A stretch of 64,000 nt of DNA from Leptotrichia wadei (GTDB taxonomy: Bacteria; Fusobacteriota; Fusobacteriia; Fusobacteriales; Leptotrichiaceae), in the NCBI RefSeq assembly GCF_007990545.2, contig NZ_AP019829.2:2046001-2110000 (forward strand). The letters are read 5' to 3'. Below the pieces are notes generated by a model. That model made no database searches, was not told the DNA's origin, and saw only the letters and a program-made list of their open reading frames with translations. A program made the translations under genes and the position numbers. The first letter of the stretch is position 1; every line of letters begins with the position of its first letter. Below are positions 23,878 through 54,771 of this stretch, in pieces.

Positions 23878-23906
23878 AGCCGAATAGAAATTCGGCTGAT
23901 TTTTTT
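23878..23906 (+). terminator. Rho-independent terminator after tonB
   Basis: Perfect arms AGCCGAAT (23878-23885) and ATTCGGCT (23890-23897) with a four-base loop are followed by a run of seven Ts, starting within 10 bases of the tonB stop codon. Confidence 0.9.
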
Positions 23907-23919
23907 GTATAATATATTT

Positions 23920-25140
23920 ATGACAAACATTACACAAAATAAACTGAAATATATTTTCAGTAACAACAATATTTTACTAGATTTCTTAAAATTTTACAAG
24001 AAAAATAATATTGGCGACAGTCACCTTGAATATATTAAACTTTCCATTGATAAATTTCTTGCCTGCAGGGATATTTCAAAAGGTTTTGTCAAGTTCAAAT
24101 GTCCCCACTGTCCTGTTACACACCTGTTCCCTATTACTTGTAAGTCTAGGCTCTGCCCTTCTTGCGGTTACAGGTATTCTATGACATGGACTGAAAATAT
24201 TCAAAAGCATATTCTCAATATTGAACACCGCCATGTCCTTTTTACTATCCCTCAAGAATGCAGAAAGTTCTTCTTTTATGACAGATCCCTTCTGTCAAAA
24301 CTTTCTGCCGCTGTTAACCAGGTGTTCAAGTTCATCTTTCACAATGTCAGCAGGAAAAGAAAAAGAAAAAACAAAATTTCTGAACATTCCAAATACTACT
24401 TTACTGATTCTGATATTGTACATTACGACCTCATTTCTGTCATTCATACTTTTGGCAGGGACCTGAAATGGAACCCTCATGTTCATGCCATTGTTTCATT
24501 AGGAGGATTCAATAAAAATCTTGAGTTCAGGAAAATGAGATACTTCAACGTTGACACTATTGACGGGCAATGGAAATACCATGTCCTTAAAATTATTGAA
24601 AACGGAAGCTATCCCAGCAGGAAGATTGAGAAAGACGCTAGAAATACTGCTACGAAGCTTTACAAGGAAAACAGAAGGTTCTTCTTTAACGTTGGCAATG
24701 GCGATATTAACAGCACAAAAGGCATTATCAAATATCTTGGACGATACCTTGCACGTTCCCCCATTGCTGAATACAAGATTACTGACATTACTGACAAGGA
24801 GGTCACTTTCTTTTTTAACGACCTGGCTAATAATAAAAAGGAAACTTACATTGCTATGCCTTCCGAGAGATTTATTTCCCATATTTTAATTCATCTTCCT
24901 CCAAAAAATTTTAAGATGGTAAATCGATATGGATTTTACTCAAGACGTATTTCCGACAAACTCAAAAAAGCAATTGAACCTTTTAAAAGAAATGTTGCAG
25001 TATCAAAATATTCATTTTATCAAAGGCAGGTGTACAAGACTTTTGGGATGAATCCTTTTTACTGTCCAGCATGCAAGGTTAAAATGATTGTATGGGAATT
25101 TTATCATTACAGATATCCGCCCCTCAAAAAATACTATTAA
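23920..25140 (+). CDS. IS91-like HUH (Y2) transposase
   Basis: This is a transposase of the IS91 type, which moves DNA by a rolling-circle mechanism. It has 406 residues from the ATG at 23920, and an upstream TTG is less likely. An N-terminal zinc-binding domain has Cys at about 61, 64, 74, 79 and 82 (FKCPHCP, CKSRLCPSCG). The HUH motif is NPHVHAIV (His about 187 and 189), and a paired-tyrosine motif YLGRYLARSPI follows at about 275-285. Its codons are visibly more GC-rich than its neighbours, consistent with recent arrival. The gene sits just behind the tonB terminator and left of attL. I could not define exact oriIS and terIS ends. Confidence 0.85.
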   Translation: MTNITQNKLKYIFSNNNILLDFLKFYKKNNIGDSHLEYIKLSIDKFLACRDISKGFVKFKCPHCPVTHLFPITCKSRLCPSCGYRYSMTWTENIQKHILNIEHRHVLFTIPQECRKFFFYDRSLLSKLSAAVNQVFKFIFHNVSRKRKRKNKISEHSKYYFTDSDIVHYDLISVIHTFGRDLKWNPHVHAIVSLGGFNKNLEFRKMRYFNVDTIDGQWKYHVLKIIENGSYPSRKIEKDARNTATKLYKENRRFFFNVGNGDINSTKGIIKYLGRYLARSPIAEYKITDITDKEVTFFFNDLANNKKETYIAMPSERFISHILIHLPPKNFKMVNRYGFYSRRISDKLKKAIEPFKRNVAVSKYSFYQRQVYKTFGMNPFYCPACKVKMIVWEFYHYRYPPLKKYY

Positions 25141-25151
25141 TATTTTATTAA

Positions 25152-25164
25152 TCCAACCTGGTTG
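25152..25164. repeat. Small palindrome after the transposase gene
   Basis: CCAACC-T-GGTTGG lies 12 bases after the transposase stop and may belong to the insertion-sequence end or act as a weak terminator. Confidence 0.4.
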
Positions 25165-25211
25165 GATATTTTGTCGTAGACATTTATATATTTATTTGAC
25201 AAAAGAAGAGT

Positions 25212-25233
25212 AAAAGAGGCTGACGCCTCTTTT
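25212..25233. terminator. Strong bidirectional hairpin right of the transposase gene
   Basis: Nine-base perfect arms AAAAGAGGC and GCCTCTTTT surround a TGAC loop. It could terminate the transposase transcript or be the terminal hairpin of the IS91-like element. Confidence 0.6.
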
Positions 25234-25289
25234 AAAATTATCAAATATATCAGTAAATGACTAAAAAATATGAATTTAATTTCCTTATA

Positions 25290-25335
25290 AAAAAAAATAC
25301 GCCACCCTTGTGATGACGTATTTAAAAAGGAGTTT
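25290..25335. repeat. attL core direct repeat
   Basis: This 46-base sequence (A-tract, then TACGCCACCCTTG and onward to AGTTT) matches 35876-35921 exactly. After it the two copies differ by one extra T, then agree again for about 10 bases. On the minus strand it reads as a hairpin followed by a T tract, so the attachment site overlaps a terminator-like structure. Confidence 0.85.
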
Positions 25336-25393
25336 GAAGAAAAAACTACTTTTTTAACGAAAAGCCAATGTTTATAGGGGTTAAAATTCAAAA

Positions 25394-25416
25394 GGTAACC
25401 AACGGGTAACCAACGG
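25394..25416. repeat. Left tandem repeat (candidate integrase arm sites)
   Basis: Two back-to-back copies of GGTAACCAACG lie 59 bases inside attL. The same 23-base block occurs in the same orientation at 35750-35772 near the other end. Tandem direct repeats inside both ends are typical of arm-type binding sites for tyrosine integrases with an N-terminal arm-binding domain. Confidence 0.7.
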
Positions 25417-25522
25417 AAAAAAGTAAAAAAATAAATCCGCTATTTATGGGGGGTTGCGAGTGTCAAAAAAATATCACTACATTGCAACTCTAAAAAGAAA
25501 ATCTAACTAATAAAAAAAATAA

Positions 25523-25552
25523 AGATTATCCAAAAACGGATAGTCTTTTTTT
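25523..25552 (+). terminator. Rho-independent terminator near the left end of the element
   Basis: Arms AGATTATCC and GGATAGTCT (one G-U pair) around a six-base loop are followed by seven Ts. It would insulate the element from transcription entering through attL. Confidence 0.75.
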
Positions 25553-26055
25553 ATTTGATATTTTATAAACGATTCAAAACTTAAAGAAAATATGGTATAA
25601 TAATATTACCAATCCAAAGCATAGTAGTGATATTTGTTAGCACTACTCCAAATAAATATTTAAAATGCAACCAGTTAGAACCAAAAATGTAACCAGTTCT
25701 AGCGGTTGCAAAATATTAACAAATATAATAAATACAATGGTTATAGATGACAACCAAAAATAAAATCTAATGAGACTTTTTGAGACAAATTGCACCAAAA
25801 ACGAACGAACGTTAGAACGTTCAAAAGTATTTTAAAGGCAATGAATATAATAGTTAGAGAATAGTGCAAACGATAATTGGCGATGACACGAAATGACATA
25901 GCGAACGTTAAAAAGCGAACGAACGAAAGAATAAAATTAAATACTAGAATAATAATGGACCTGCTATGAAAATGGGCTTTTTTTATTGATTAAAAGTTAA
26001 AATAAACATTTTGTAATATTTATAATCCATATTGTTTAAAAAAATTAAATTTTTG

Positions 26056-26084
26056 TTGCACTTTTAAAATAAAAAAGGTAAAAT
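26056..26084 (+). promoter_or_regulatory. Promoter of the DUF2335 gene pair
   Basis: TTGCAC (26056-26061), 17 bases, then TAAAAT (26079-26084), about 29 bases before the AGGAGGG ribosome-binding site of the gene at 26113. Confidence 0.55.
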
Positions 26085-26112
26085 AAATTATATCAAAATT
26101 AGGAGGGAGATT

Positions 26113-26304
26113 ATGAACAGTAATTTAAAAGCCTTTATTGAGGGAATAGCGGACATAGTTTATCAGCCTGAAATATCGTTGAAAAGAAATTCTAATTTTG
26201 AAAAAGATGATTATAAAGCATTAAAATCGGATTGGGAAAAAGTTGGAAATGATATAAGAAGTGCAATAAAAGAATATAGCAAGTGTCAAAAAGTAGGTAA
26301 ATAG
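26113..26304 (+). CDS. Small protein upstream of the DUF2335 gene, unknown function
   Basis: I do not recognise this 63-residue protein. It has a strong AGGAGGGAG ribosome-binding site and is followed after one base by the DUF2335 gene, so the two are certainly cotranscribed and probably act together. It is predicted to be soluble and mostly helical, with the segment LKSDWEKVGNDIRSAIKEYSK resembling an amphipathic helix near residues 37-57. There is no membrane segment or Cys cluster. A role as a cytosolic partner or regulator of the membrane protein is only a guess from operon position. Confidence 0.75.
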   Translation: MNSNLKAFIEGIADIVYQPEISLKRNSNFEKDDYKALKSDWEKVGNDIRSAIKEYSKCQKVGK

Positions 26305-26305
26305 A

Positions 26306-26749
26306 ATGGTGAAAAGAAATAAAAAGCAAATAGCAAAAGCCCCTAAAAATCACAAAACAGAAACACAGATCCAAAGTGTCTCTATACGTTCAGCACCAAT
26401 ACCAACTTATCAGGAATTACAAGGGTATGAAAATATTGAAAAGGGGTTAGCCAGCAGGATTGTGGCAATGGCAGAACGGCAACAGAAAAACAGGCAAAAG
26501 ATAGAAATGCAGGAATCGCAAACGTTTCAAAGAAATCAAGAAAAACTTGTAAATGGTGCAATAGTTTCAAAAATCCTAGGGCAGATAATTGGCGGTATTG
26601 CAGTTTTATCGGCTATAATTGGCAGTATATATCTTTTAAGCATAGGCAAAAGCCTTGAGGGTTATGCCTCTATGATTGGGGCTATTGGAATGTTAGCCGT
26701 TTCATTAGGGTTAAGAAATAAAGACAAAGGCAATAAAGAAAAAGAATAA
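26306..26749 (+). CDS. DUF2335 domain membrane protein
   Basis: The 147-residue protein matches the DUF2335 pattern: a Lys-rich N-terminus, then PIPTYQELQGYENIEKGLASRIVAMAERQQKNRQKIE at about 33-70, and two C-terminal hydrophobic helices at about 93-113 and 118-136 (GGIAVLSAIIGSIYLL and SMIGAIGMLAVSLG). It is expected to be a small inner-membrane protein with a cytoplasmic N-terminal half. The family has no assigned function but is frequent on prophages and islands. It lies at the left end of the element, outside the replication and regulation block, where cargo genes often sit. A strong terminator follows. Confidence 0.8.
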   Translation: MVKRNKKQIAKAPKNHKTETQIQSVSIRSAPIPTYQELQGYENIEKGLASRIVAMAERQQKNRQKIEMQESQTFQRNQEKLVNGAIVSKILGQIIGGIAVLSAIIGSIYLLSIGKSLEGYASMIGAIGMLAVSLGLRNKDKGNKEKE

Positions 26750-26762
26750 CGGGCCTATTAAC

Positions 26763-26798
26763 TTAAATCGTAGTTATTGAATTAACTGCGATTTTTTT
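26763..26798 (+). terminator. Rho-independent terminator after the DUF2335 gene
   Basis: The inverted repeat AAATCGTAGTTA / TTAACTGCGATTT (one mismatch) with a short loop runs into a T7 tract, about 15 bases after the stop codon. Confidence 0.8.
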
Positions 26799-26799
26799 A

Positions 26800-27917
26800 T
26801 AAAAAAAATAAAATCCTAAAAAGGTACTTCCAGAAAACTTTTACAAGGCGAACGGGTTCGAAGCCCCATTAAAAATATGTTTACTAATTTTTTTAAGTTT
26901 CACTTCCGCTTCTGTTTTGAAATAAAAAAAATACTTCAATGTATTATATTCAAATGGCTAGGACATATTAAGACTTTTATATAAAAGCAGAAATAACCAA
27001 TCATTTTAAAGCGATTTAAGAACATTGAATACCCTAGACATAGTTTTATACCAAAAATCAGATTATCAAACGTAAGTGAAATCCTAGACCCAATAGAGAA
27101 CGTTTTAAGAATAAATTGAGAAGTTAAAAATGAGAACCAGTATATTTTTACTAAAAAATACTAATTTTTAACTTGCTGGAAACACTAAACTTGAATTAGG
27201 GTATAAAAAAAATAAAAGCCCTAAGTTAGATTTAGGGAGTATGGATATAAAAACCTAACACTATTAATTTTGAATAACATTAAAAAAATGTTTTATTTTT
27301 TAATATTCAGCCCCCTATTCAGGTTTTAAGGGATAAAGGCCCTTGTAAATTTAAGTATTGCTAAGTTTACAATGTTATTAGAGCCACATAGATAAGCCAC
27401 ACGTATGATAAATGAGTTAAGCAGGGAAAATATTAAAGAATTGAATGGAAAGCCTGTATGGGCTTGTATTTGGCTTATATAAGGGGATATGATTGGTTTC
27501 CTAATTTTGAGAAACCAAAAATTGATTTATGACACGTGCCACGGTACGAAAAATTTTCGTATCAGGGTTATCACTTATTTATCCTGAAAAAAGTTATAAG
27601 AAAAATCTTGATATAAAATCACGTTCGCCATAAGGGCGAAGGCAAACAGCAAAATATATTGCTTATTAAATTTTCCCCACAAGTGGAGAAATAAAAACAA
27701 CCAAAGGGGAGTTATATTATCCCTATTGGCTGTAATCAATGATTATTTGCGACCTATATCTAACATAGACCGTTATTTGATATATAAATTCTATATATCG
27801 GCTAACAAAAGATGACACAGTAGATTTTATCTACTCACTTCAAAGGGTGTTGCTTTTAACTACCCCCTAACAATTCGTTCAGTCATTTTGAGATGGCAGA
27901 AGTTTTGCCAACTGGAT
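26800..27917. other. Hairpin-rich non-coding stretch of 1.1 kb inside the element
   Basis: No convincing gene is present. Several compact inverted repeats occur: CCCTAA/TTAGGG (27219-27237), AAGGG/CCCTT near 27328-27343, TCGCC/GGCGA near 27628-27641, TTTCCCCAC/GTGGAGAAA near 27671-27690, and GTAGA/TCTAC near 27821-27834. A T-arm-like CGGGTTCGAAGCCC at about 26852-26865 is not part of a full tRNA. The density of stems suggests a structured RNA, an origin, or a degraded region. A possible broken small ORF at 27405-27587 is listed separately. Confidence 0.45.
27405..27587 (+). pseudogene. Possible broken small ORF
   Basis: From the ATG at 27405 the frame reads MINELSRENIKELNGKPVW and then stops at 27480-27482, but continues in the same frame to a second stop at 27585-27587. 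The ELNGKPVW phrase recalls small phage proteins of unknown function. With one stop inside and no clear ribosome-binding site, it may be a relic or chance. Confidence 0.25.
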
Positions 27918-28580
27918 TCAATCAGTATCTTTTTCTTTTTTGTTAGTACTTCTATATAAAGCCTCGTTCATTTTATCAAATAAAAAGTTTTTCAAACTTT
28001 CAGCAGGTATTACGGGTTCGTTATCGTCTGGTGGAAGTTCTTCAACTTTATAATTTGATAGTTCTAATTTGAAATGATACTCAATAATATCAATAAGTTT
28101 TTCTAAAATACAACCAAAATTATCTAATGAAGTAGCATATTTTTCTTCATTTCTTTTAATATAAAGGTTATTTTCTTCTCCCAAAGTATCAGCGTTCATA
28201 TAAATTTTATAACCAAAACTAACGATTAATTTTTCTAATATATCTTCACGATTTTCTTTTTCCATTTTTTCTTTATCATTATCAAAAAAAAGTTCTTTCC
28301 GTGTTTCGACATCTAAAACTTCATTAGATAGTCCTGGAATATCAATAATAAAACCCGCAAGCAATAACTTTGGAATATGCAATATTTCAATAATCTCTTT
28401 CGCTACTTCTAAAGGTATTTTACCATCTTTTTCATATCGCTTTATTGTATAGGGAGTTTTATTTAGTTTTTCCGCTAATTCTTTTTGTGTCATTTTCCTC
28501 GATTTTCTAAAAAATTTAACAGCTTTTCCCAGATGTTCAAAATCAATAAATTCTTCTTTTTTTTCCATTTTTTTCTCCAT
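27918..28580 (-). CDS. CI-like phage repressor (XRE helix-turn-helix)
   Basis: This is a likely repressor that keeps the element quiet. It has 220 residues. The N-terminal XRE-type helix-turn-helix is at about 14-70 (GKAVKFFRKSRKMTQKELAEKLNKTPYTIKRYEKDGKIP). The C-terminal part is acidic and shows no Ser-Lys self-cleavage motif that I can identify, so LexA-type autocleavage is not supported. It is transcribed away from two Cro-like genes across a 158-base control region with repeated GTAAC half-sites, a phage-style switch. A minus-strand promoter TTGCTT-17-TATTAT covers the same repeats, implying autoregulation. Induction may depend on the ORF6N-type protein at 29172. Confidence 0.82.
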   Translation of the reverse strand: MEKKMEKKEEFIDFEHLGKAVKFFRKSRKMTQKELAEKLNKTPYTIKRYEKDGKIPLEVAKEIIEILHIPKLLLAGFIIDIPGLSNEVLDVETRKELFFDNDKEKMEKENREDILEKLIVSFGYKIYMNADTLGEENNLYIKRNEEKYATSLDNFGCILEKLIDIIEYHFKLELSNYKVEELPPDDNEPVIPAESLKNFLFDKMNEALYRSTNKKEKDTD

Positions 28581-28738
28581 ATTAATTATTAATTCTCTAA
28601 TACTATAATATCAAAAAGTAACAAAAAAAGCAACTTTTTATATTTTTTATAAAAAATATATTGACTAAAGTAATAATATGTGTTACCATTATTTAGAAAT
28701 AGGTAACATAAAATATTACTTTTAGGAGAGTGAGATAA
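28581..28738. promoter_or_regulatory. Divergent operator/promoter region of the repressor-Cro switch
   Basis: Rightward promoter: TTGACT (28661-28666), 17 bases, TACCAT (28684-28689). Leftward promoter: TTGCTT, 17 bases, TATTAT, reading toward the repressor. Repeated half-sites are AAAGTAAC (28615-28622), AAAGTAAT (28667-28674), GTTACC (28682-28687), GGTAAC (28702-28707) and ATTACTTT (28715-28722). GTTACC and GGTAAC form an inverted repeat with 14 bases between. These look like operator sites for the repressor and the Cro-like proteins. Confidence 0.65.
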
Positions 28739-28939
28739 ATGGTAAACAACAAATTAAAGGGGAAATTAAAAGAATACAGTTTCAATTATGATAATTTTTC
28801 AAAGGTTATAGGATTATCAAAAACAGCATTTACCAATAAAATCAATGGAAAAGGTTTCAAAGACAAAGAAATTGCTAGAATGAAAAAGATCTTTAATTTA
28901 ACCAATGATGAAGTAGTAGAAATCTTTATAAACGAATAA
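28739..28939 (+). CDS. Cro/DUF739-like small regulator, copy 1
   Basis: This 66-residue protein is a single helix-turn-helix: YDNFSKVIGLSKTAFTNKINGKGFKDKEIARMKKIF at about 19-54, ending LTNDEVVEIFINE. The LKGKLKE...LTNDEVVEIF pattern matches the DUF739/Cro type of phage regulators. It is the first gene rightward of the switch. The second gene (28953-29159) ends in nearly the same peptide, so the two are probably a tandem duplication or two members of one family with different DNA readings. It would compete with the repressor at the operators. Confidence 0.78.
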   Translation: MVNNKLKGKLKEYSFNYDNFSKVIGLSKTAFTNKINGKGFKDKEIARMKKIFNLTNDEVVEIFINE

Positions 28940-28952
28940 GGAGGCAAGGGAA

Positions 28953-29159
28953 ATGATACAAAAGAACATCTTAAAATCAAAATTATCATTGAAAGAAAAG
29001 ACACAAAAGGATTTAGCCAAAGCATTGGGATTATCCAAGGTTAGTGTAAGTAAAAAGGTAAATGGGCTGTTAAGATTTAGTTTACCTGAAGTGAAAAAGG
29101 TTAAAGATTATTTGGATCTAACTAATGATGAAGTTGTTGAAATATTTATAAATGGATAG
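28953..29159 (+). CDS. Cro/DUF739-like small regulator, copy 2
   Basis: This 68-residue helix-turn-helix protein has TQKDLAKALGLSKVSVSKKVNGLLRFSLPEVKKVKDY at about 18-53 and ends LTNDEVVEIFING, almost identical to the end of copy 1. The recognition helices differ (KTAFTNKI in copy 1, KVSVSKKV in copy 2), so the operators bound are likely different. AAGGAGGCAAGGG precedes the start. It begins 13 bases after copy 1 and 12 bases before the antirepressor gene, all in one transcript. Confidence 0.78.
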   Translation: MIQKNILKSKLSLKEKTQKDLAKALGLSKVSVSKKVNGLLRFSLPEVKKVKDYLDLTNDEVVEIFING

Positions 29160-29171
29160 GAGTGATAGAAA

Positions 29172-30005
29172 ATGAAAGAACTAGCGATATTAGCGGGAAA
29201 TAACAAAATAATGATTAACGGGATCGAGATTGAAACAAAAGAGTATAAGGGGCAAAGGGTTATAACGGCTTGGGATATAGCAAAATTACATGAAAGAGAA
29301 CCAAGAGAAATCACACAGAACTTTAAATATATAAAAGATAAAATGATTTTAGGGTTAGATTATTTTACAATATCTAGAAATGAAATCTCTAAATCAAAAA
29401 TTATGATCCAGGATTTTATACCAAACAACGTAAAGAAAATACAGTTATTTACCGAAAGGGGATATTTAAAACTAACCAAAACATTTACAGATGAGTTAAG
29501 TTGGAAAATACAAGATATGTTAGTTGAAAGTTACTTTATTGTGGTAACTGGGAAAATACAGCCTAAACAACTAACTAAAATAGAAGTCTTAAAAATGGCA
29601 CTTGAAACAGAACTTGAAAACGAAAGATTGAGAAATGAAAACAAGGCCCAATGTGAAATAATAAAGGGGCTAAACGGAGAACTAGAGCCATATCAGTTAG
29701 AGGACATTATAAACAGAATTATAAGGGCAACTGGTGGAAACTATGGGGCTAAATACAATGAAGTTTATAGAGTGTTTAAAGAACGTTATCACATTGACTT
29801 AAAGACTAGAATGACTAACTACAACAAGACAGTAAGGGCAAAGGACAGATTTAAAAGCGTGCTTAAATATGCACTAGCCAATAACTACGGCAAAGACTTA
29901 TTGAACGTAGTAACAACGTTATTTCCTGAAAGCGTAAGAATTGTAATGGACGGAATCAATCAAAATACAGGGCTAGGAAAAGATGAACCATTGTTATTGG
30001 ATTGA
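29172..30005 (+). CDS. ORF6N-domain antirepressor-like protein
   Basis: The 277-residue protein has an N-terminal ORF6N/KilA-N-type domain at about 10-105 (INGIEIETKEYKGQRVITAWDIAKLHEREPREITQNFKYIKDKM...RGYLKLTKTFTDELSWKIQDMLVESYF). A helical linker comes next, at about 130-170. The C-terminal domain (about 175-277) has IRATGGNYGAKYNEVYRVFKERYHIDLKTRM. This is the layout of phage antirepressors, which inactivate the lysogeny repressor by unknown or protein-protein means. Its position right after the Cro-like genes fits that role. DNA binding is also possible for the N-terminal domain. Confidence 0.78.
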   Translation: MKELAILAGNNKIMINGIEIETKEYKGQRVITAWDIAKLHEREPREITQNFKYIKDKMILGLDYFTISRNEISKSKIMIQDFIPNNVKKIQLFTERGYLKLTKTFTDELSWKIQDMLVESYFIVVTGKIQPKQLTKIEVLKMALETELENERLRNENKAQCEIIKGLNGELEPYQLEDIINRIIRATGGNYGAKYNEVYRVFKERYHIDLKTRMTNYNKTVRAKDRFKSVLKYALANNYGKDLLNVVTTLFPESVRIVMDGINQNTGLGKDEPLLLD

Positions 30006-30111
30006 TCCGAAAATGGAAAGTTACGGTGTCGGAATGATACAGGAAATGAAGCCATTTTTGGCTTGAGTGGGCCTGCTATACACAGGTAATGGACAATTAC
30101 AGTCAAATAAA

Positions 30112-30139
30112 TTTTTGTGAAGTTTGTAGTATAATTTAT
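30112..30139 (+). repeat. Left arm of a 28-bp inverted repeat around the AbrB-like gene
   Basis: It matches the reverse complement of 30459-30486 at 26 of 28 positions. It contains TTGTAGTATAAT, a -10-like motif also found at 30436-30446. The pair encloses the small AbrB-like gene. Confidence 0.7.
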
Positions 30140-30159
30140 AAAAAAATTTAAATTATAAT

Positions 30160-30208
30160 TTGACAATTAAGACCTTACATAGTATAATTATAACGTAAGG
30201 ACTTAACA
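30160..30208 (+). promoter_or_regulatory. Consensus promoter with palindromic operator
   Basis: TTGACA (30160-30165), 17 bases, TATAAT (30183-30188) is a perfect sigma-70-type promoter. CCTTAC (30173-30178) and GTAAGG (30195-30200) form an inverted repeat spanning the -10 box, a natural site for autoregulation by the AbrB-like product that starts at 30224. Confidence 0.7.
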
Positions 30209-30223
30209 GGAAAGGAAATAATT

Positions 30224-30397
30224 ATGAAAACGGTAAGAAATGCGAAAGTTATTTTTAGCAAAATGGGAAATGGCAAAGGTGTAAGGCTGAACCTATCCGT
30301 ACCGCTGTTAAAATCGTTAGGGATTGATGAAAATAATCGAGATGTAACGGTTGAATATGATGACGAAACAAAAACAGTTATCATAAAAAAATCATAA
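30224..30397 (+). CDS. AbrB/SpoVT/MazE-like small DNA-binding protein
   Basis: This 57-residue protein, MKTVRNAKVIFSKMGNGKG and onward to KTVIIKKS, has the swapped-hairpin AbrB-like look: a beta strand, GKGVRLNLSVPLLKSLGI, then a DVTVEYDDETKTVIIKK strand pair. AAAGGAAAT precedes the ATG. The family covers transition-state regulators and antitoxins, but no toxin gene is adjacent, so a regulator is more likely. It has its own consensus promoter and palindromic operator, and 28-bp inverted repeats lie on both sides. It would bind DNA as a dimer and probably represses itself. Confidence 0.7.
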   Translation: MKTVRNAKVIFSKMGNGKGVRLNLSVPLLKSLGIDENNRDVTVEYDDETKTVIIKKS

Positions 30398-30719
30398 AAA
30401 AAACGTCCTTTATATCCTTACGAACACAAAGAACGTTGTAGTATAAACTACGTCGCAAATAGATTATACTACAAACTTCGCAAAAATGCAAAAAGAGTTT
30501 TGTAGTATTTTTTTATACCTAAATTTTAGAATAAGCAATTATAACACATATCAAAAAACAAATAAATAGGCATATTCAATATACTTCAGGCAATAAGAAA
30601 ATACACTAATATTTGATTGTAGGTTAAGCGATGGGCTTAATAATTTTAAGATACAACGTGAACGGTGCTACGTAATGCTAGAACGGTTAAATTTAAATAT
30701 TGAAATGGAGTGGTGGAAA
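30398..30719. other. Spacer with the right inverted-repeat arm; no gene
   Basis: It holds TTGTAGTATAA (30436-30446) facing TTATACTACAA (30464-30474), then another partial copy TTTTGTAGTAT near 30496-30506. The remainder is AT-rich with no ORF that I would call. Confidence 0.5.
30459..30486 (-). repeat. Right arm of the 28-bp inverted repeat
   Basis: It is the reverse complement of 30112-30139 except for two T/C changes. Read on the minus strand it carries a TATAAT box, so it may be a duplicated promoter facing left. Confidence 0.7.
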
Positions 30720-30836
30720 ATGAAACACAAATTTGAAGCATTGGAAATGGTAAACAAAAATAGCGAAAAGGCTAGAGAAAAAGAGGCTAAGAAAATCATT
30801 AACAGGCTAAAAAGAATGATTAAAGGCATTAATTAA
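30720..30836 (+). CDS. Very small basic protein, unknown
   Basis: This 38-codon ORF (MKHKFEALEMVNKNSEKARE...) sits behind TGGAGTGG with good spacing, in a run of small element genes. The product would be a single Lys-rich helix. I do not recognise it. Confidence 0.5.
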   Translation: MKHKFEALEMVNKNSEKAREKEAKKIINRLKRMIKGIN

Positions 30837-30901
30837 GTTGATCCGAAGTTTTTGGGCGGATTTAATAAGCAAAATAAATTAAGATTAGGAGAGTGTTAGA
30901 G

Positions 30902-31237
30902 ATGAAAATGAATGAAAGAAAAGAATTTTTTGAAGATGTTGTAATGGAAGTTACAGATGAAATATTAGAAAGTGGAACACACGGAGAAAGTGAAAGCCGT
31001 TTACTAAAAAAAGATGAAAAGATTAAAGATAAATTGGCTGAATTATTTACCTATGTAAAAATAGCAATAAACGAAATGAGAGATGAAACAAGCCGGAAAA
31101 GTGAAAAAGAAATATATGAAAAATACAGAAAAAATATTGAGAAAATGTATGTTGATGAAGTTTTGTGTAACAGTGTTATAGCTGTTGATATACTGGAAAA
31201 AGCAGAAAAAATAACAAAAAAGGCATTTAATAAATAG
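30902..31237 (+). CDS. Hypothetical element protein (111 residues)
   Basis: I do not recognise this gene. The product is acidic at the N-terminus (NERKEFFEDVVMEVTDEILESGTHGESESRLLKKDEKIKD), entirely helical by appearance, with no membrane segment or Cys. The ATG at 30902 has TTAGGAGAG about 8-10 bases upstream. The frame is open from a GTG at 30893 but that sits directly on the ribosome-binding site. It is followed 12 bases later by another small gene in the same run. A DNA-mimic or regulatory role is possible from the charge, but that is a guess. Confidence 0.7.
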   Translation: MKMNERKEFFEDVVMEVTDEILESGTHGESESRLLKKDEKIKDKLAELFTYVKIAINEMRDETSRKSEKEIYEKYRKNIEKMYVDEVLCNSVIAVDILEKAEKITKKAFNK

Positions 31238-31249
31238 GAGTGATAGGGA

Positions 31250-31471
31250 ATGGAAGCAAAAGCGGAAGGAATGGAAGAAAGTATAATAGAATGGGCAAGT
31301 TTTGAATTTGAAGTAGAGAACAAAGAAAAATTGGACATCATTTTTAATGAACTAAAAAGCAATAAAAAGGCAAGTGATTTATTGGTACATTTGATTAATG
31401 GCGTGCAAGATACGTTCTTTGAACTAGGGAAACAAGTGGCTAAAATAGAAAATATGAAAATGAGGGGATAA
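31250..31471 (+). CDS. Hypothetical element protein (73 residues)
   Basis: Unrecognised small protein in the same transcript, with TAGGAGTGATAGGGA before the ATG. It has a helical, charged sequence (MEAKAEGMEESIIEWASFEFEVENKEKLDIIFNELK is the N-terminal half in outline). No membrane segment is evident. It lies between two other small genes, and its stop is 3 bases before a candidate ORF that would need an ATA start. Confidence 0.65.
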   Translation: MEAKAEGMEESIIEWASFEFEVENKEKLDIIFNELKSNKKASDLLVHLINGVQDTFFELGKQVAKIENMKMRG

Positions 31472-31473
31472 AA

Positions 31474-31590
31474 ATAGAGTTATTAGAAATACTAGAAGCA
31501 GAACTATTGGAAATACCTGAAACAGAATTAATAGAACTAGAAAATATAGAAATAGGAGTGAATGAAAATGAAAGCGATCCAGAAAAATAA
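31474..31590 (+). CDS. Candidate micro-ORF with a non-standard ATA start
   Basis: From ATA at 31474 the frame reads 38 residues beginning xELLEILEAELLEIPETE with no stop. AGGGG lies 6 bases upstream at ideal distance. The peptide is a very acidic Leu/Glu repeat and overlaps the start of the Rha-like gene by 23 bases. Either initiation uses ATA, or a former ATG has mutated, or it is not translated. Confidence 0.3.
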   Translation: MELLEILEAELLEIPETELIELENIEIGVNENESDPEK

Positions 31591-32476
31591 AACGATAACA
31601 AGCCTAGAATTATTAAAGAAAATCAATGAGTTAAGGGAAAAGGAATATTTAGAAAAGGCAAAGGCTGGAACATTAACTGAAGCTGAAAGAAAAAAAGGGA
31701 AAGCAGTTAAATTAAAACATAAAAGTTTTTTAAATGTGATAAGAGATGAATTTGAAAACGAAATCACTGGGCAAAATATTTTGCTTAGTGAAAACTTAGA
31801 AAGTAATAATGAAAAAACAGGTCTCCAAAATATTTTGGAGACCTCACAGCAAAAATTATTATCAGTAAATAAAAAAATCACTAACGTTAAAATTTACGTG
31901 AGTAAATACAAAGATAAAAGCGGAAAAGAAAATGAAATGTTTGTATTGGCACTTAATCAAGCCAAACAAGTGCTAATGAGGGAAAGCAAATATGTGAGAA
32001 AAGCCGTAATTGGATATATAGACTACCTAGAGAACCAAAACAGACAATTAGAGGAACTTGCAAGGCTTCAGGCAAGGGAATTGGCTAAAGCGACTAGGAA
32101 CATTGAAACGTTGAATATAAAGGCCCTTTTATATTACGGCAAGGTAAGCAAACCTAAACAAAAGTTTCACTATATCCATTATACAAATTTAGCCAGAGAT
32201 ATAGCAGGAATACCGAAAGGGCTTAAAAGAGATGAATTGACACAAGGGCAACTAGGAATATTACAGCAAGTTGAATTAATAATGAGCGCTGTTATAAACG
32301 AATGTATAAACGAACAAATACCATTTACACTTATATATCAGGAAGTTAGAGAACGTACCGAAATCAAAGCCAGAGTGCTGTTAAAGGCATTGCAAAAGAT
32401 TGAAAGTGTAGACAATGGGCCTGTATGGAGTTTGGAATATTCAGAAAATAAGGGGGGAAATAGTTATGAACAGTAA
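31568..32476 (+). CDS. Rha-like phage regulatory protein
   Basis: This 302-residue protein contains a segment at about 104-155 (KIYVSKYKDKSGKENEMFVLALNQAKQVLMRESKYVRKAVIGYIDYLE) with the layout of the Rha domain found in lambdoid and other phages, where the family interferes with host or phage gene control. The C-terminal half is helical and unassigned. The ATG at 31568 has AGGAG 9 bases upstream. An in-frame ATG at 31562 is too close to it. Two perfect palindromes centred on CAAAATATTTTG lie inside the coding sequence (31771-31784, 31820-31843), which is unusual. Confidence 0.65.
   Translation: MKAIQKNKTITSLELLKKINELREKEYLEKAKAGTLTEAERKKGKAVKLKHKSFLNVIRDEFENEITGQNILLSENLESNNEKTGLQNILETSQQKLLSVNKKITNVKIYVSKYKDKSGKENEMFVLALNQAKQVLMRESKYVRKAVIGYIDYLENQNRQLEELARLQARELAKATRNIETLNIKALLYYGKVSKPKQKFHYIHYTNLARDIAGIPKGLKRDELTQGQLGILQQVELIMSAVINECINEQIPFTLIYQEVRERTEIKARVLLKALQKIESVDNGPVWSLEYSENKGGNSYEQ
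31771..31784. repeat. 14-bp perfect palindrome GCAAAATATTTTGC
   Basis: It lies within the Rha-like coding sequence and shares the core CAAAATATTTTG with the larger palindrome 36 bases on and with the palindrome at 47101-47118. Confidence 0.6.
31820..31843. repeat. 24-bp perfect palindrome in the Rha-like gene
   Basis: Arms GGTCTCCAAAAT and ATTTTGGAGACC meet without a loop. This could be an operator, a strong RNA hairpin or a protein-binding site inside the gene. Confidence 0.65.
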
Positions 32477-32618
32477 TGAAAGAGCGAAAGTTATAATTGA
32501 AGGATTTAAAAAATTAACTTTGGAACAAATGGAACAAATGCTAATCAAATTAGGAATACCAACAGATAGGAAAATAGGGAGTGATGAAAATGGTGGAAAA
32601 GAATATGCAAAGCGTTAA
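32466..32618 (+). CDS. Small helical element protein (50 residues)
   Basis: MNSNERAKVIIEGFKKLTLE... behind an AAGGGGGGAAA ribosome-binding site. The ATG at 32466 is chosen because the longer frame from 32415 overlaps the Rha-like gene without a binding site. The product is unrecognised. It overlaps the next gene by about 29 bases. Confidence 0.55.
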   Translation: MNSNERAKVIIEGFKKLTLEQMEQMLIKLGIPTDRKIGSDENGGKEYAKR

Positions 32619-32790
32619 AAGAAGTGTTAAAAGAATAATGGATCATAAAAATTACAACGAGGATATACAAGCCGTATTAGATAAACTTAACGAGGAAATA
32701 GACGATTATAGGCTATATGAACGGCATTTAAGAAGTGTTTACGAACTAATGGAACTAGGTATCAGAATAACAGTGGCGGCATATAATTAA
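32590..32790 (+). CDS. Small helical element protein (66 residues)
   Basis: The ATG at 32590 follows AGGGAG by 8 bases. The frame is open a little further upstream (32581) with worse spacing. The protein is charged and helical (DIQAVLDKLNEEIDDYRLYERHLRSVYELMELGIRITVAAYN at the C-terminal end in outline) and resembles small phage proteins of unknown role. No motif allows a function. It is part of the compact run of overlapping genes between the Rha-like regulator and Rep. Confidence 0.6.
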   Translation: MVEKNMQSVKRSVKRIMDHKNYNEDIQAVLDKLNEEIDDYRLYERHLRSVYELMELGIRITVAAYN

Positions 32791-32812
32791 AGCAGGATCG
32801 GAGAAATAAAAA

Positions 32813-32995
32813 ATGATAGAATTTGAAATATTAAAAGAAGTTACATTGGCAATTAACCAGGATAGAGAAAAGAAAAAGGCAGAAAAGATTAAAGAATGGA
32901 AAGCACGGGCTAATAATGTGTCAGAGTATATATGCAGTCTGCCTATATCACACAGCCAAAGAAATCAATTAGTGGATAAAATACCGATTTATTAG
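32813..32995 (+). CDS. Small basic element protein (60 residues)
   Basis: MIEFEILKEVTLAINQDRE... is Lys/Glu-rich and helical. The ATG follows a GGATCGGAGAAA stretch. Unrecognised. It belongs to the run of tiny genes before Rep. Confidence 0.55.
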   Translation: MIEFEILKEVTLAINQDREKKKAEKIKEWKARANNVSEYICSLPISHSQRNQLVDKIPIY

Positions 32996-33003
32996 ATGTT
33001 GCA

Positions 33004-33102
33004 TTGGACTGGAAAGCATTAGAAGCGGTAATAAACGAAAGTAATGCAATTATGAAAATATTTGATGAGGACAACGAAGACAATGGAGAAAAATTATCAT
33101 AG
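33004..33102 (+). CDS. Doubtful micro-ORF (32 residues)
   Basis: A TTG-start frame reads MDWKALEAVINESNAIMKIF... to a TAG. It begins 9 bases after the previous stop and has no obvious ribosome-binding site. It may be translated by reinitiation or be chance. Confidence 0.25.
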   Translation: MDWKALEAVINESNAIMKIFDEDNEDNGEKLS

Positions 33103-33122
33103 TATAATGGGGGTGAATAAAG

Positions 33123-33275
33123 GTGAAAGAAGTACATTGTAAGCACTGCGGAGCATTTTTATTTGGAATTGAAAGCGATTGTAAATATTATGTTACAAAG
33201 TGTAAAAAATGCGGTGTAATAAACCGTGGAAGCACTTCGCAGGTATTTAAGCCAAAGAAAAAGAATGAAAAATAA
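33123..33275 (+). CDS. Com-like zinc-finger protein
   Basis: A 50-residue protein starting at GTG 33123, with GGGGGTG upstream. Two CxxC pairs are present, CKHC near residues 6-9 and CKKC near 27-30 (VHCKHCGAFLFGIE, KCKKCGVINRG), with a basic tail. This is the pattern of Mu Com-family zinc-ribbon regulators, which act on mRNA translation of a phage DNA-modification gene. No such target gene is visible here, so its role is unknown. Confidence 0.65.
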   Translation: MKEVHCKHCGAFLFGIESDCKYYVTKCKKCGVINRGSTSQVFKPKKKNEK

Positions 33276-33797
33276 AAAAATGGCTTGTTATAACAACGTA
33301 GAGGGGAGTTATAGCAAGCGATTCTAATAAGATTGGTGTGTAATTTTACATATCAATTATACCATATCACAGCAATTAAAACAATAAAAAGCCCCTATTT
33401 TTAAAAATGATAACAAATAAAAAATATTAAATACCATAACAAATTTTATAATTTTTGAATAAAAGGAAGTATATAAAAATGTAAGATTAATAAAATATTA
33501 AATAAAAATATATAAATAGAATTGGGTAAAATTTTTTTGTTTTCTTTATATAGTTATAATGGGATTGAATTTTACATTTTTAATCATTTTTCATTCAAAG
33601 ATATAGCCTATATAGCATAAATAAAGGCTTTGAATATGAAATAAACTATATAATTCTAAGGAAAAGGCTAATAAAAAGATGATAATGTTGATGTTTTATT
33701 GTTGAAAAAAATAAGAGATAATTTATTCAGGAAAATGATTGGGAGAATGCACGACAAATTTAACATTTTGATAAAGATTGGGTAGGAAGTGAAAAGA
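33276..33797. other. Non-coding region upstream of rep, candidate rolling-circle origin
   Basis: About 520 bases with no ORF. It starts with a strong hairpin (33283-33319) whose 13-base loop contains AACGTAGAGGGGA. The rest is AT-rich and includes small inverted repeats such as TATAGCC/TATATAGC near 33602-33617. In Rep_1-type plasmids the double-strand origin usually lies upstream of or within rep, so this is the natural place for it. Confidence 0.45.
33283..33319. repeat. Hairpin that may be the Rep nicking site
   Basis: Arms GCTTGTTATAAC (33283-33294) and GTTATAGCAAGC (33308-33319) pair at 11 of 12 positions, leaving a 13-base single-strand loop, the shape expected of an origin nicked by an HUH protein. 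No known nick sequence is matched. Confidence 0.45.
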
Positions 33798-34550
33798 ATG
33801 GAAAAAAAGGGGAATTATCCTAAGCGTTACAGATACACAGAAGCGGAAACAGATAGGATAATAGAGATATTAGAAATCATAGAAGAATACAGAAAAACAA
33901 ATGAAGTTGATGAAATAATGGAATGTATAAACAATGAACTTTTATACGGTTCAGGGGAAATAAATTATGTTACGAGATGTAAACGGCAAACGTGTCCATT
34001 ATGCAGGGAAAACAGAAAATATAAGACATATTTAAAATTAAAAGAAAAGGTAGCCAAACAAAATGGAATCCGCTATATATTGATGACATTTAACGGCAGG
34101 GAAATAGGAGATTTAACAAAACTAAGTGATGAAGTTGGGGAAAATAATAGCATAGTGGCACGGATTGTGAGAAAAAAGAGCATACAAGCGATAATGTTGG
34201 GGTATATAAAGATAGTTGAAATATCGTACAACAAATATTCAAAGCGATTATTGCCACATGTACATTTATTGTTAGCAGTTAAAGAGGACTTTAAAGAACA
34301 TTGGATCAGAAAAAAAGAGATAGACAAACTAGAAAAGACTTGGAAAAAATGGAAAAAGGAAACCATAACAAACGCTATTGATGTAAAAATAGTGAAAGAT
34401 ACTGAAAAAGATATTGATACAGTATTAAAGTACATAACGATAGTAAACAAAAAGCGTATAATGAATCTAAATGATATGGAAATAAGGGCCTTTTTTGAAA
34501 TGATAAACGAAAGAAAAAGGCTTTTTACAACTTCAGGGATATTCAAATAA
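33798..34550 (+). CDS. Rolling-circle replication initiator (Rep_1, pC194/pUB110 type)
   Basis: Rep nicks one strand at the origin and starts rolling-circle replication. The 250-residue protein shows the Rep_1 order: a Cys-rich start (Cys 61, 66 and 69 in VTRCKRQTCPLCRENR), LMTFNG near 96-101, the HUH motif LLPHVHLLLAV (His 154 and 156), then the nucleophile motif VLKYITIV with Tyr near 212. ATG 33798 is preferred. An in-frame GTG at 33789 sits directly against the AGGAA ribosome-binding site. It is followed by the integrase gene. The pairing of Rep with a tyrosine integrase implies that the element replicates as a circle after excision. Confidence 0.85.
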   Translation: MEKKGNYPKRYRYTEAETDRIIEILEIIEEYRKTNEVDEIMECINNELLYGSGEINYVTRCKRQTCPLCRENRKYKTYLKLKEKVAKQNGIRYILMTFNGREIGDLTKLSDEVGENNSIVARIVRKKSIQAIMLGYIKIVEISYNKYSKRLLPHVHLLLAVKEDFKEHWIRKKEIDKLEKTWKKWKKETITNAIDVKIVKDTEKDIDTVLKYITIVNKKRIMNLNDMEIRAFFEMINERKRLFTTSGIFK

Positions 34551-34666
34551 AAATAAACATAAGATATTACAAGTGATAAAAAATATATTGATTTATTAAA
34601 AGAATGATATTAAAATACAAAGGCAAGTAGTGCCTAATTAGTTAGATTTTTGGATTGGTGGGAAAT

Positions 34667-35737
34667 ATGAAAAGAAAAAAGAAAGCAAATAGGCAAGGGA
34701 GTGTAACAAAGACAAAGAAAAACAAGCCGTATTGGGTAAGGGTTACCGATCCAGCCACAGGGAAACGAAAATCGCTTGGAATGTATGCGACAAGGACAGA
34801 GGCACAGGAAATATTAAATAATTATTTGGTAAATCCTTATGAGATAGACAACAGCAAGATTATATTTAGCGAACTGTATAAACTGTTTATCAGCAACCAA
34901 AGGGAAATGGTAAAAAAAGCAACCCTTGACAGTTATAAGAACAGCTACAAAAGATGTGAGCCGTTACATAGCCTAGTATTCAGGGAAATAAAAGGCCCGC
35001 AAATGCAACAGGCTATAAACAACTTGAATACAAGTTCAGCGACAAAGCAAATAACGAAGAACTTTTTAACAACGTTATTTAACTATGGAATGGAACTTGA
35101 AATAATAACCGTAAATAGAGCCAAGTACATCAAAATACCTAAAGAATCAGTACAAAAGGAAAAAAATATATTTAGCAGTTATGAAATACAGAAACTATGG
35201 AATAATATTAGCACACAATGGGTTGACTATATTCTAATTATGATTTACACAGGAATGAGGATTGGGGAACTTGCTGGGCTAAAAAAAGAAAACGTTGACC
35301 TATTGCAAGGCTTCATAAATGGCGGGAACAAGACAGAGAAAGGAAAACACCGACAAATACCGATACACAAGGATATTTTCCAATTAATTAAAGGCTTGTA
35401 TGAGAAAAGCCCAACAGATTATTTGCTATACAACCAAAATTGGGTTTTTAAGAAAAAGGAAAAGGAAAATAAGCCGTTACGGATTAATTTTTTCCGTGAA
35501 CATTTTTACAAAACATTGGAATCTCTAGGAATGAACCACAAGCCACACGATTGCCGAAAGACCCTGAGCACTCTAATGAGCCGACAGCAATTAACAACAA
35601 CAGCCATAACGAATATATTAGGACACGAAAACATTGAAACCACGAACAAGTTTTATATTAAGACAGATAAGGAAAACTTAAAAGCTGAAATGAACAATAT
35701 AAAATTTTATTCGGATGAAAGCAATATGACAAATTAA
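34667..35737 (+). CDS. Tyrosine integrase of the element
   Basis: A site-specific recombinase of 356 residues that would integrate and excise the element. An N-terminal arm-binding domain (about 10-56, RQGSVTKTKKNKPYWVRV...SLGMYATRTEAQ) is followed by a core-binding SAM-like domain (about 65-155) and the catalytic domain. Active-site residues are in TGMRIGEL (Arg 198), GGNKTEKGKH (Lys 222), HDCRKT (His 294, Arg 297), LGHENIETTNKFY (His 320, Tyr 330). The ATG at 34667 follows GGTGGG. The right tandem GGTAACCAACG repeat starts 13 bases after its stop, and attR 139 bases after. Confidence 0.93.
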   Translation: MKRKKKANRQGSVTKTKKNKPYWVRVTDPATGKRKSLGMYATRTEAQEILNNYLVNPYEIDNSKIIFSELYKLFISNQREMVKKATLDSYKNSYKRCEPLHSLVFREIKGPQMQQAINNLNTSSATKQITKNFLTTLFNYGMELEIITVNRAKYIKIPKESVQKEKNIFSSYEIQKLWNNISTQWVDYILIMIYTGMRIGELAGLKKENVDLLQGFINGGNKTEKGKHRQIPIHKDIFQLIKGLYEKSPTDYLLYNQNWVFKKKEKENKPLRINFFREHFYKTLESLGMNHKPHDCRKTLSTLMSRQQLTTTAITNILGHENIETTNKFYIKTDKENLKAEMNNIKFYSDESNMTN

Positions 35738-35749
35738 CAGACTTGAAAA

Positions 35750-35772
35750 GGTAACCAACGGGTAACCAACGG
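35750..35772. repeat. Right tandem repeat (candidate integrase arm sites)
   Basis: Two copies of GGTAACCAACG followed by G, identical and in the same direction as 25394-25416, lying 103 bases inside attR. Confidence 0.7.
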
Positions 35773-35875
35773 AAATAATATAAAAAGTTTACCCCGCATA
35801 AACACTACGTTTAATAATTGGGTAATTGAAATGAGATAAACAAAGTGGAAACCGCTTCAAAGCACCGTAAATACT

Positions 35876-35921
35876 AAAAAAAATACGCCACCCTTGTGAT
35901 GACGTATTTAAAAAGGAGTTT
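35876..35921. repeat. attR core direct repeat
   Basis: Exact 46-base copy of 25290-25335. It marks the right boundary of the element. Chromosomal sequence resumes with a TGAAGAAAAAAG stretch. Confidence 0.85.
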
Positions 35922-36043
35922 TGAAGAAAAAAGTTTTCACTTTTTCTATTGGTCAAGTATTATTATACAGGAATATTCTTATAACAAAATTTTTATTTTC
36001 TTTGTTTTTTATTTGTATAATAAAAATAATAAAAATTAATTAA

Positions 36044-36121: not shown

Positions 36122-36292
36122 CTACTTAGCGTGATTTTCTTTATGTGGACTGCAAGTTGAACCAGTTGAACAATGACAGCAGTCTGTTCCACAAAGATTT
36201 TTATTTTTTTTATAGTCCTTGTATATTTTTCTAAATACTGCAAATACGATTGCAGCTGCAATTATAGCGATTATAACTGTTTTTATTATCAT
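36122..36292 (-). CDS. FeoB-associated Cys-rich membrane protein
   Basis: This 56-residue protein, translated by hand, has an N-terminal membrane helix (KTVIIAIIAAAIVFAVF) and a short cytoplasmic tail with the cluster CGTDCCHCSTGSTC, ending HKENHAK. This matches the small Cys-rich proteins often encoded after feoB, thought to help ferrous-iron uptake, possibly by handling iron at the membrane. GGAAG precedes the ATG. It starts 34 bases after the feoB stop and belongs to the feoA-feoB transcript. Confidence 0.85.
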   Translation of the reverse strand: MIIKTVIIAIIAAAIVFAVFRKIYKDYKKNKNLCGTDCCHCSTGSTCSPHKENHAK

Positions 36293-36326
36293 TTTCTGCA
36301 CTTCCTTTCAAAATTTTATTTCATAT

Positions 36327-54525: not shown

Positions 54526-54771
54526 GAAGCAAAAGTACAAATCAAATAAATATTGAATATATAATAAATTTCTGGTCTATACGCCACTAACATCGAATTT
54601 TTGGGCTTTACTCTTTTTTTATGGGGTTATCCCTTTGTAAATTGTCTCAGGAAAATCACGACTACTTCAAGTTTTGTACGGATTCTGTACGATTTATAAA
54701 TATGACTACCACCTGTAACATTTTGCAGGCAACCAAAAATTAAGTTAGAACGGTAGATCGGATTTTTTTTA
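54526..54771 (+). ncRNA. Candidate structured non-coding RNA, about 245 nt
   Basis: The segment between hemW and tgt is richer in G and C than the spacers around it and holds no ORF. It follows a perfect promoter. Possible local stems are GGGGUUAUCCC (54623-54633), UUGUAC/GUACGA (54674-54692), and CCUGUAA/UUGCAGG (54712-54729). Bases 54571-54579 can pair with 54755-54763 (nine pairs, two G-U) to close the whole RNA, followed by T8. The closing-stem layout recalls 6S RNA, but I cannot match the conserved bubble, so the class is left open. It is not tmRNA, SRP or RNase P RNA by visible motifs. Confidence 0.6.

Follow-up and report, generated by a model that had tools for sequence, protein, structure and literature searches.

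Based on a computational analysis of a 64,000-nucleotide stretch of Leptotrichia wadei DNA (hereafter the window), we consider it very probable that the element at 25290-35921 is an integrated cos-type phage satellite, with its excision, replication and packaging inferred. Because the element has an integrase, a rolling-circle rep gene and a lambda-like packaging site, we think that the particles of other phages are its most likely means of spread. A preliminary description of this DNA had proposed a self-replicating, probably helper-dependent fusobacterial element, and our observations support that proposal; the packaging site at 26802-26908, which was not among the features listed there, provides sequence evidence for the dependence on a helper.

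In the mechanism we propose, the tyrosine integrase would place the element in the terminator behind feoB, where the integrated form and recurrent use of the site are observed, and a CI/Cro switch would keep it silent until a helper phage, probably, overturns the silencing. The excised circle would then replicate through the Rep_1 HUH initiator that it encodes (this domain is present, its activity is predicted), and rolling-circle replication would give the head-to-tail DNA needed by a cos terminase. The helper's terminase would cut and load this DNA at 26802-26908; because the helper's site is carried, that terminase could package the element, in which terminase and capsid genes are absent. 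Sister elements have the site of a second terminase clade in its stead and have, apparently, changed helper by this exchange.

A probable packaging site shared with lambda-like prophages

When the whole element was used as a query, the 106-bp noncoding stretch at 26802-26908 matched single places in six other genomes, each directly upstream of terS, which is followed by a GpA-type TerL. Phage lambda has its cos in this very position. In the G010 prophage, the site is followed by a GpA ATPase and nuclease, a lambda-family portal, a ClpP-like protease and capsid E. The 20-bp core of the stretch, GCGAACGGGTTCGAAGCCCC, was searched for in 33 Leptotrichiaceae genomes with up to 2 mismatches, with the reversed pattern as a control. 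It occurs once in each of 8 of the 33 genomes (reversed control, 0): six copies are just upstream of terS/TerL, and two are in feoB-site elements, those of the window and of G013. We read 26802-26908 as the cos-type packaging site of a lambda-like phage, from which packaging of the element is predicted.

Does the site depend on the terminase that would cut it? At the same position and between the same flanks, the elements of G006 and G011 carry a second (type-2) site, CCCTGTGGGTCTNGCGAGTCCC; the sequence on the left is shared up to AAAAGGTACTTTGG, and a different core, GCCCTGTGGGTCTGGCGAGTCCC, then follows. This core has 4 copies in the 33 genomes (one in each of these two elements and, in both G008 and G009, one upstream of terS; control, 0), and a lambda-family portal is present in all eight genomes with a type-1 or type-2 prophage. 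The type of site tracks the terminase clade, given that identity to the TerL query is 83-100% for the type-1 phages and 66% for the type-2 phages. A third type-2 prophage, the recombinant IMGVR 645951860, separates the two terminase subunits: its TerS is closer to type 1 (79% versus 63%), and its TerL nuclease is closer to type 2 (72% versus 59%). Because this phage has the type-2 core, the core follows the TerL nuclease rather than TerS, as expected if it is a terminase cut site. It is for this reason that we read the core as the terminase cut region, and we regard the pattern as strong evidence that the elements would carry it for packaging. The replacement of the roughly 100-bp predicted cos site in the sister elements by that of the second terminase clade is a natural exchange of a phage cos cassette and, apparently, a change of helper.

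The ORF6N antirepressor of the window element has a C-terminal domain with a counterpart (75% identical) in the G013 element only, and the domain is thus common only to the two type-1 satellites (window and G013; n = 4). With just four elements to compare, we speculate that this domain may serve helper-specific induction.

The feoB site and the family of elements

The exact 46-bp direct repeats given in the preliminary description are present at both ends of the element (Table 1) and enclose 10,586 bp; the 25-bp core of the repeat has no further copy within the window. The repeat corresponds to the intrinsic terminator that follows feoB, with its hairpin read from the minus strand, and the fold at attR has a z of -5.1, with no shuffle equally good. 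The GGTAACCAACGGGTAACCAACGG repeats at both ends are probable arm sites for the integrase, whose catalytic set is complete (R199, K223, H295-R298, H321 and Y331 are conserved). The terminator stem at the feoB attachment site (attB) differs among species, with changes on both stem sides. In G010 and G014, the attL hairpin is unlike the attR hairpin, and here also both stem sides are changed.

Elements at the feoB site occur, with integrases that are 57-69% identical, in 11 of the 13 genomes of the genus, and one genome of a sister genus has such an element as well. The structure of the element is beyond chance, given that its ends, its site and its order of genes are found again in 11 other genomes. 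In the 13 genus genomes, the feoB terminator is occupied solely by such elements, with no use by prophages. The preliminary description had tied its proposal to three expectations, namely, that an empty site (left flank, one repeat and right flank) exists, that longer relatives do not carry capsid genes and that the same genes are not found outside the repeats. A single core at an unoccupied site is present in both G007 and G008, no relative has capsid genes, and the genes move as a unit within the repeats. G008 is recognized as unoccupied because a left flank like that of G015 (89-92% over several kilobases) runs into the core and feoB; about 40 bp left of this core may be the remnant of an old element. 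Different elements stand beside right flanks that are 97-99% identical in G000 and G016, which shows turnover at the site, and remnants of earlier elements have accreted in tandem left of several feoB-site elements (the left flanks of L056, L060 and L061).

The elements form two groups. Group A consists of the window, G006, G011 and G013 elements, which have Reps 83-84% identical and conserved small genes. Group B holds the remaining elements, in which Rep is about 25-30% identical, the integrase is of the same family, and the cargo is RelB-YafQ and AbiEi/AbiEii or GmrSD. Virion genes were found in no element of either group. Among 98 Fusobacteriota genomes, a Rep of this kind is found in only two genera, Leptotrichia and another of the same family, and IMG/VR holds no close relatives by Rep or integrase. 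No cos or other prophage-shared site was found in the group-B elements, for which we make no satellite claim. A recurring 45-bp match in group B was rejected as a shared site, since its position coincides, by inspection, with the terminator after the toxin-antitoxin genes.

Could the element instead be a decayed lambda-like prophage, which lost its virion genes and kept the integrase, switch and cos by descent? The cos site, CI/Cro and antirepressor are all phage-like, and the integrase is about 40% identical to ones such as G008:C5:720107, which is 23 kb from a lambda-like TerL. However, virion genes are missing from all eleven relatives that occupy this attB, which are of similar size; the small genes remain intact in the four group-A elements, with a Rep that is 83% identical; Rep_1 has no match in the helper loci examined; and the cos types have been exchanged within a conserved satellite backbone. 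A longer feoB-site relative with this Rep, the integrase and capsid genes was found in 0 of the 13 genus genomes. Given these observations, descent by decay seems to us very improbable.

Replication and relation to known elements

How might a satellite at this site replicate? An alignment shows that Rep_1, correctly assigned in the preliminary description, retains the zinc-binding CxxxxCPxC, the HUH motif and the motif-3 tyrosine of plasmid Reps; because these motifs are kept, rolling-circle replication by this protein is likely. A nick site of the pC194 type, CTTTCTTATCTTGATA, has no match within 3 mismatches in the window element, and the origin may differ. The hairpin-rich noncoding block of the element is conserved in all group-A elements and in L078 (G009:C15; 81-86%), an 8.2-kb element at another attachment site with a similar layout and a distant integrase. 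The replicon of L078 is a D5/DUF5906 primase-helicase, with no Rep_1. Because L078 has the block without Rep_1, the block is not tied to that protein, and we rejected it as the Rep_1 origin. The comparison suggests that replicons have been exchanged within a satellite lineage.

The plasmid-type Rep_1, which matches 511 plasmid records and one phage record, would also fit a rolling-circle plasmid that is kept by chromosomal integration and whose cos gives accidental transduction only. Plasmids of the pC194/pUB110 type share with the element the Rep_1 domain, the zinc-binding N terminus, the HUH motif (PHVH) and the motif-3 tyrosine, but Rep identity is 24-29%, and the rep gene of the window is in an integrated, repressor-controlled element. 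Furthermore, three features argue for selected phage use: the repressor, Cro and antirepressors are of phage type, a primase-type satellite-like element also has the conserved noncoding block, and cos cassettes have been exchanged precisely and repeatedly. We give the plasmid explanation very little credence.

In an integrative and mobilizable element (IME), Rep_1 would serve as both initiator and relaxase and would use the coupling protein of a conjugative element. The PF01446 initiators that small plasmids encode are also able to drive mobilization by ICEBs1 (PMC5357655), and many IMEs have, like the elements discussed here, an integrase, a rolling-circle initiator and toxin-antitoxin genes (PMC5357655, PMC5704250). 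Rep_1 might act as a relaxase, and the IME model could suit group B, which has no cos site. Yet no oriT and no canonical Mob, TcpA/FtsK or TraG gene was found in the window element; a phage cos site and phage regulators are present instead, and an IME model offers no role for the cos-type site or for its exchange to match the helper. Mobilization seems to us an improbable explanation for the element of the window.

The cos-type satellite that we favor has its closest parallels among the phage-inducible chromosomal islands (PICIs). With the cos-type PICIs SaPIbov4/5 and EcCICFT073, the element shares its size class, terminal integrase, divergent repressor/Cro control, lack of virion genes, own replicon, captured helper cos and dedicated attB (PMC6092414, PMC5052747). 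Its 10,586 bp are within the PICI range of about 10-20 kb, phage structural and lytic genes are absent, the attachment site is not used by prophages, and a helper-type packaging site is present at 26802-26908, its function predicted. A primase/Rep origin module is, however, a defining PICI feature (PMC6092414, PMC5052747); no such module with an iteron-flanked origin was found in the element, which has the Rep_1 HUH initiator only. The element also differs from PICIs in its Fusobacteriota host, in having no recognizable capsid-size or interference gene and in belonging to a family whose members, on a single backbone, have cos swapped between two clades of helper terminase. The best reading of these similarities and differences is that the element belongs to a family of cos-type satellites that are PICI-like in their strategy and in which a plasmid-type rolling-circle replicon takes the place of a primase/theta Rep.

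The phage-inducible chromosomal minimalist islands (PICMIs) of Vibrionaceae are likewise small satellites without capsid remodeling genes, and their DNA is packaged as concatemers after replication described as consistent with rolling circle; they differ in having AlpA and a primase, in integrating next to fis, in using virulent helpers and in that the PICMI helper yielded no cos or pac site (PMC10803314). SaPIbov5 makes small heads (PMC6092414, PMC5052747). Four 10.6-kb units of the window element come to 42 kb, and the two IMG/VR records with a type-2 site are 45 and 51 kb.

Several observations weigh against a cos-type satellite. No lambda-like terminase or portal was found in the window's own genome, and 0 of the 4 satellites share a genome with a prophage of their own cos type; because no satellite resides with its own helper type, other strains must supply the helpers. 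In the element, we recognized no gene for capsid size, terS or helper interference, and several of its small proteins have no family match. Group B uses the same attB with a homologous integrase but has no cos site, and the site is thus not universal for the integrase family. Finally, the case is built on sequence comparison.

Most descriptions of phage satellites come from Firmicutes, Proteobacteria and Actinobacteria, and the replicons concerned are of the primase or theta kind. The preliminary description knew of no account of this element, and our search of open papers likewise turned up neither a Fusobacteriota satellite nor a cos satellite that replicates by rolling circle. If our proposal is true, phage satellites extend to Fusobacteriota and include a rolling-circle replicon. 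We lean, if only moderately, toward a separate satellite family, so far found in Leptotrichia only, that joins a plasmid-type HUH rolling-circle replicon to a captured cos; the replicon would spool concatemers for a lambda-type terminase, and the helper would be switched via a cos cassette of about 100 bp matched to TerL. Such a family would be a natural experiment, with a single satellite backbone on which two cos sites can replace one another, each paired with its own terminase clade, and with the recombinant phage in which the site goes with the TerL nuclease and not with TerS. Both the choice of a helper and the switch to another would become directly testable, and cos sites and helpers would be predictable from sequence in an oral genus with few characterized phages.

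Other features of the element and its flanks

Most of the gene assignments of the preliminary description stand (Table 1): the integrase at the right end, the divergent switch (an HTH_3 protein on the minus strand, two DUF739 proteins on the plus strand), the ORF6N regulator and the absence of virion genes, in that Pfam and PHROG family searches of the element's proteins matched no virion, structural or lytic family. The 304-aa protein that it called Rha-like has a weak PHROG antirepressor match and no Pfam match, and its "Com-like" label is not supported, in that this regulator is a small Cys4 zinc ribbon of 50 aa (Pfam Com, E = 0.99).

Table 1. Features of the element and its feoB flank, by position in the window
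Feature	Position	Strand	Remarks
attL	25290-25335		46-bp exact repeat with feoB-type intrinsic terminator hairpin, active on minus strand
Left arm-type repeats GGTAACCAACGGGTAACCAACGG	25394-25416	+	23 bp; near attL
63-aa protein	26113-26304	+	cargo slot; RelB-YafQ in this place in sister elements
147-aa membrane protein	26306-26749	+	DUF2335; phrog_3996 membrane protein
Type-1 phage cos-like packaging site	26802-26908	+	core GCGAACGGGTTCGAAGCCCC at 26848-26867; GGTACTT at 26823
Conserved hairpin-rich noncoding block	27009-27908
CI-like repressor	27918-28580	-	HTH_3
Cro-like protein 1	28739-28939	+	DUF739; 98% identical in G006 element
Cro-like protein 2	28953-29159	+	DUF739/HTH_26
ORF6N antirepressor	29172-30005	+	3.2e-17
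57-aa AbrB/MazE-like small protein	30224-30397	+	named by inspection
53-aa conserved protein	30675-30836	+	also in sister elements and L078 element
111-aa conserved protein	30905-31237	+
73-aa conserved protein	31250-31471	+
304-aa weakly antirepressor-like protein	31562-32476	+	phrog_8235 7.9e-6
67-aa protein	32415-32618	+	conserved in sister elements
69-aa protein	32581-32790	+	conserved in sister elements
50-aa Cys4 zinc-ribbon protein	33123-33275	+
Rep_1 rolling-circle initiator	33789-34550	+	PF01446 9.5e-22; CxxxxCPxC, HUH (PHVH), motif-3 tyrosine
Tyrosine integrase	34655-35737	+	phrog_1 1e-56; PF00589 6e-24
Right arm-type repeats GGTAACCAACGGGTAACCAACGG	35750-35772	+	23 bp; near attR
attR	35876-35921		second 46-bp repeat; terminator closing feoB operon
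FeoB-associated protein gene	36122-36301	-
feoB	36327-38522	-

The gene for the 304-aa protein contains, at 31819-31844, a perfect palindrome of 26 bp, AGGTCTCCAAAATATTTTGGAGACCT, which is kept in the G011 element. The element has no match to Rfam families and, among PADLOC anti-phage genes, generic HTH matches only. In a search for CRISPR (clustered regularly interspaced short palindromic repeat) spacers against it, five 29- to 34-bp matches were examined, of which 0 were in a repeat array.

On the host side of attB (35920-35958 and orthologous sites), a near-invariant stretch follows GGAGTT in every genome of the genus as well as in G017, whether an element is present or not; its translation would be M/L-KKKVFTFSIGQ/H. 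A 40-aa open reading frame that starts at attR was considered and is probably no gene, in that only its first 11-12 codons are kept and most species have an early stop. On the other side, no synteny was found between the window's left flank and G016. An IS91-like (Y2_Tnp) transposase gene at 23905-25289 is directly left of attL, and the sequence that it has in common with another copy, parts of which are at G015 contig ends (L066 and L067), ends against the first base of the attL repeat. Farther away, the window carries a 6S RNA gene (Rfam RF00013) at 54566-54768.

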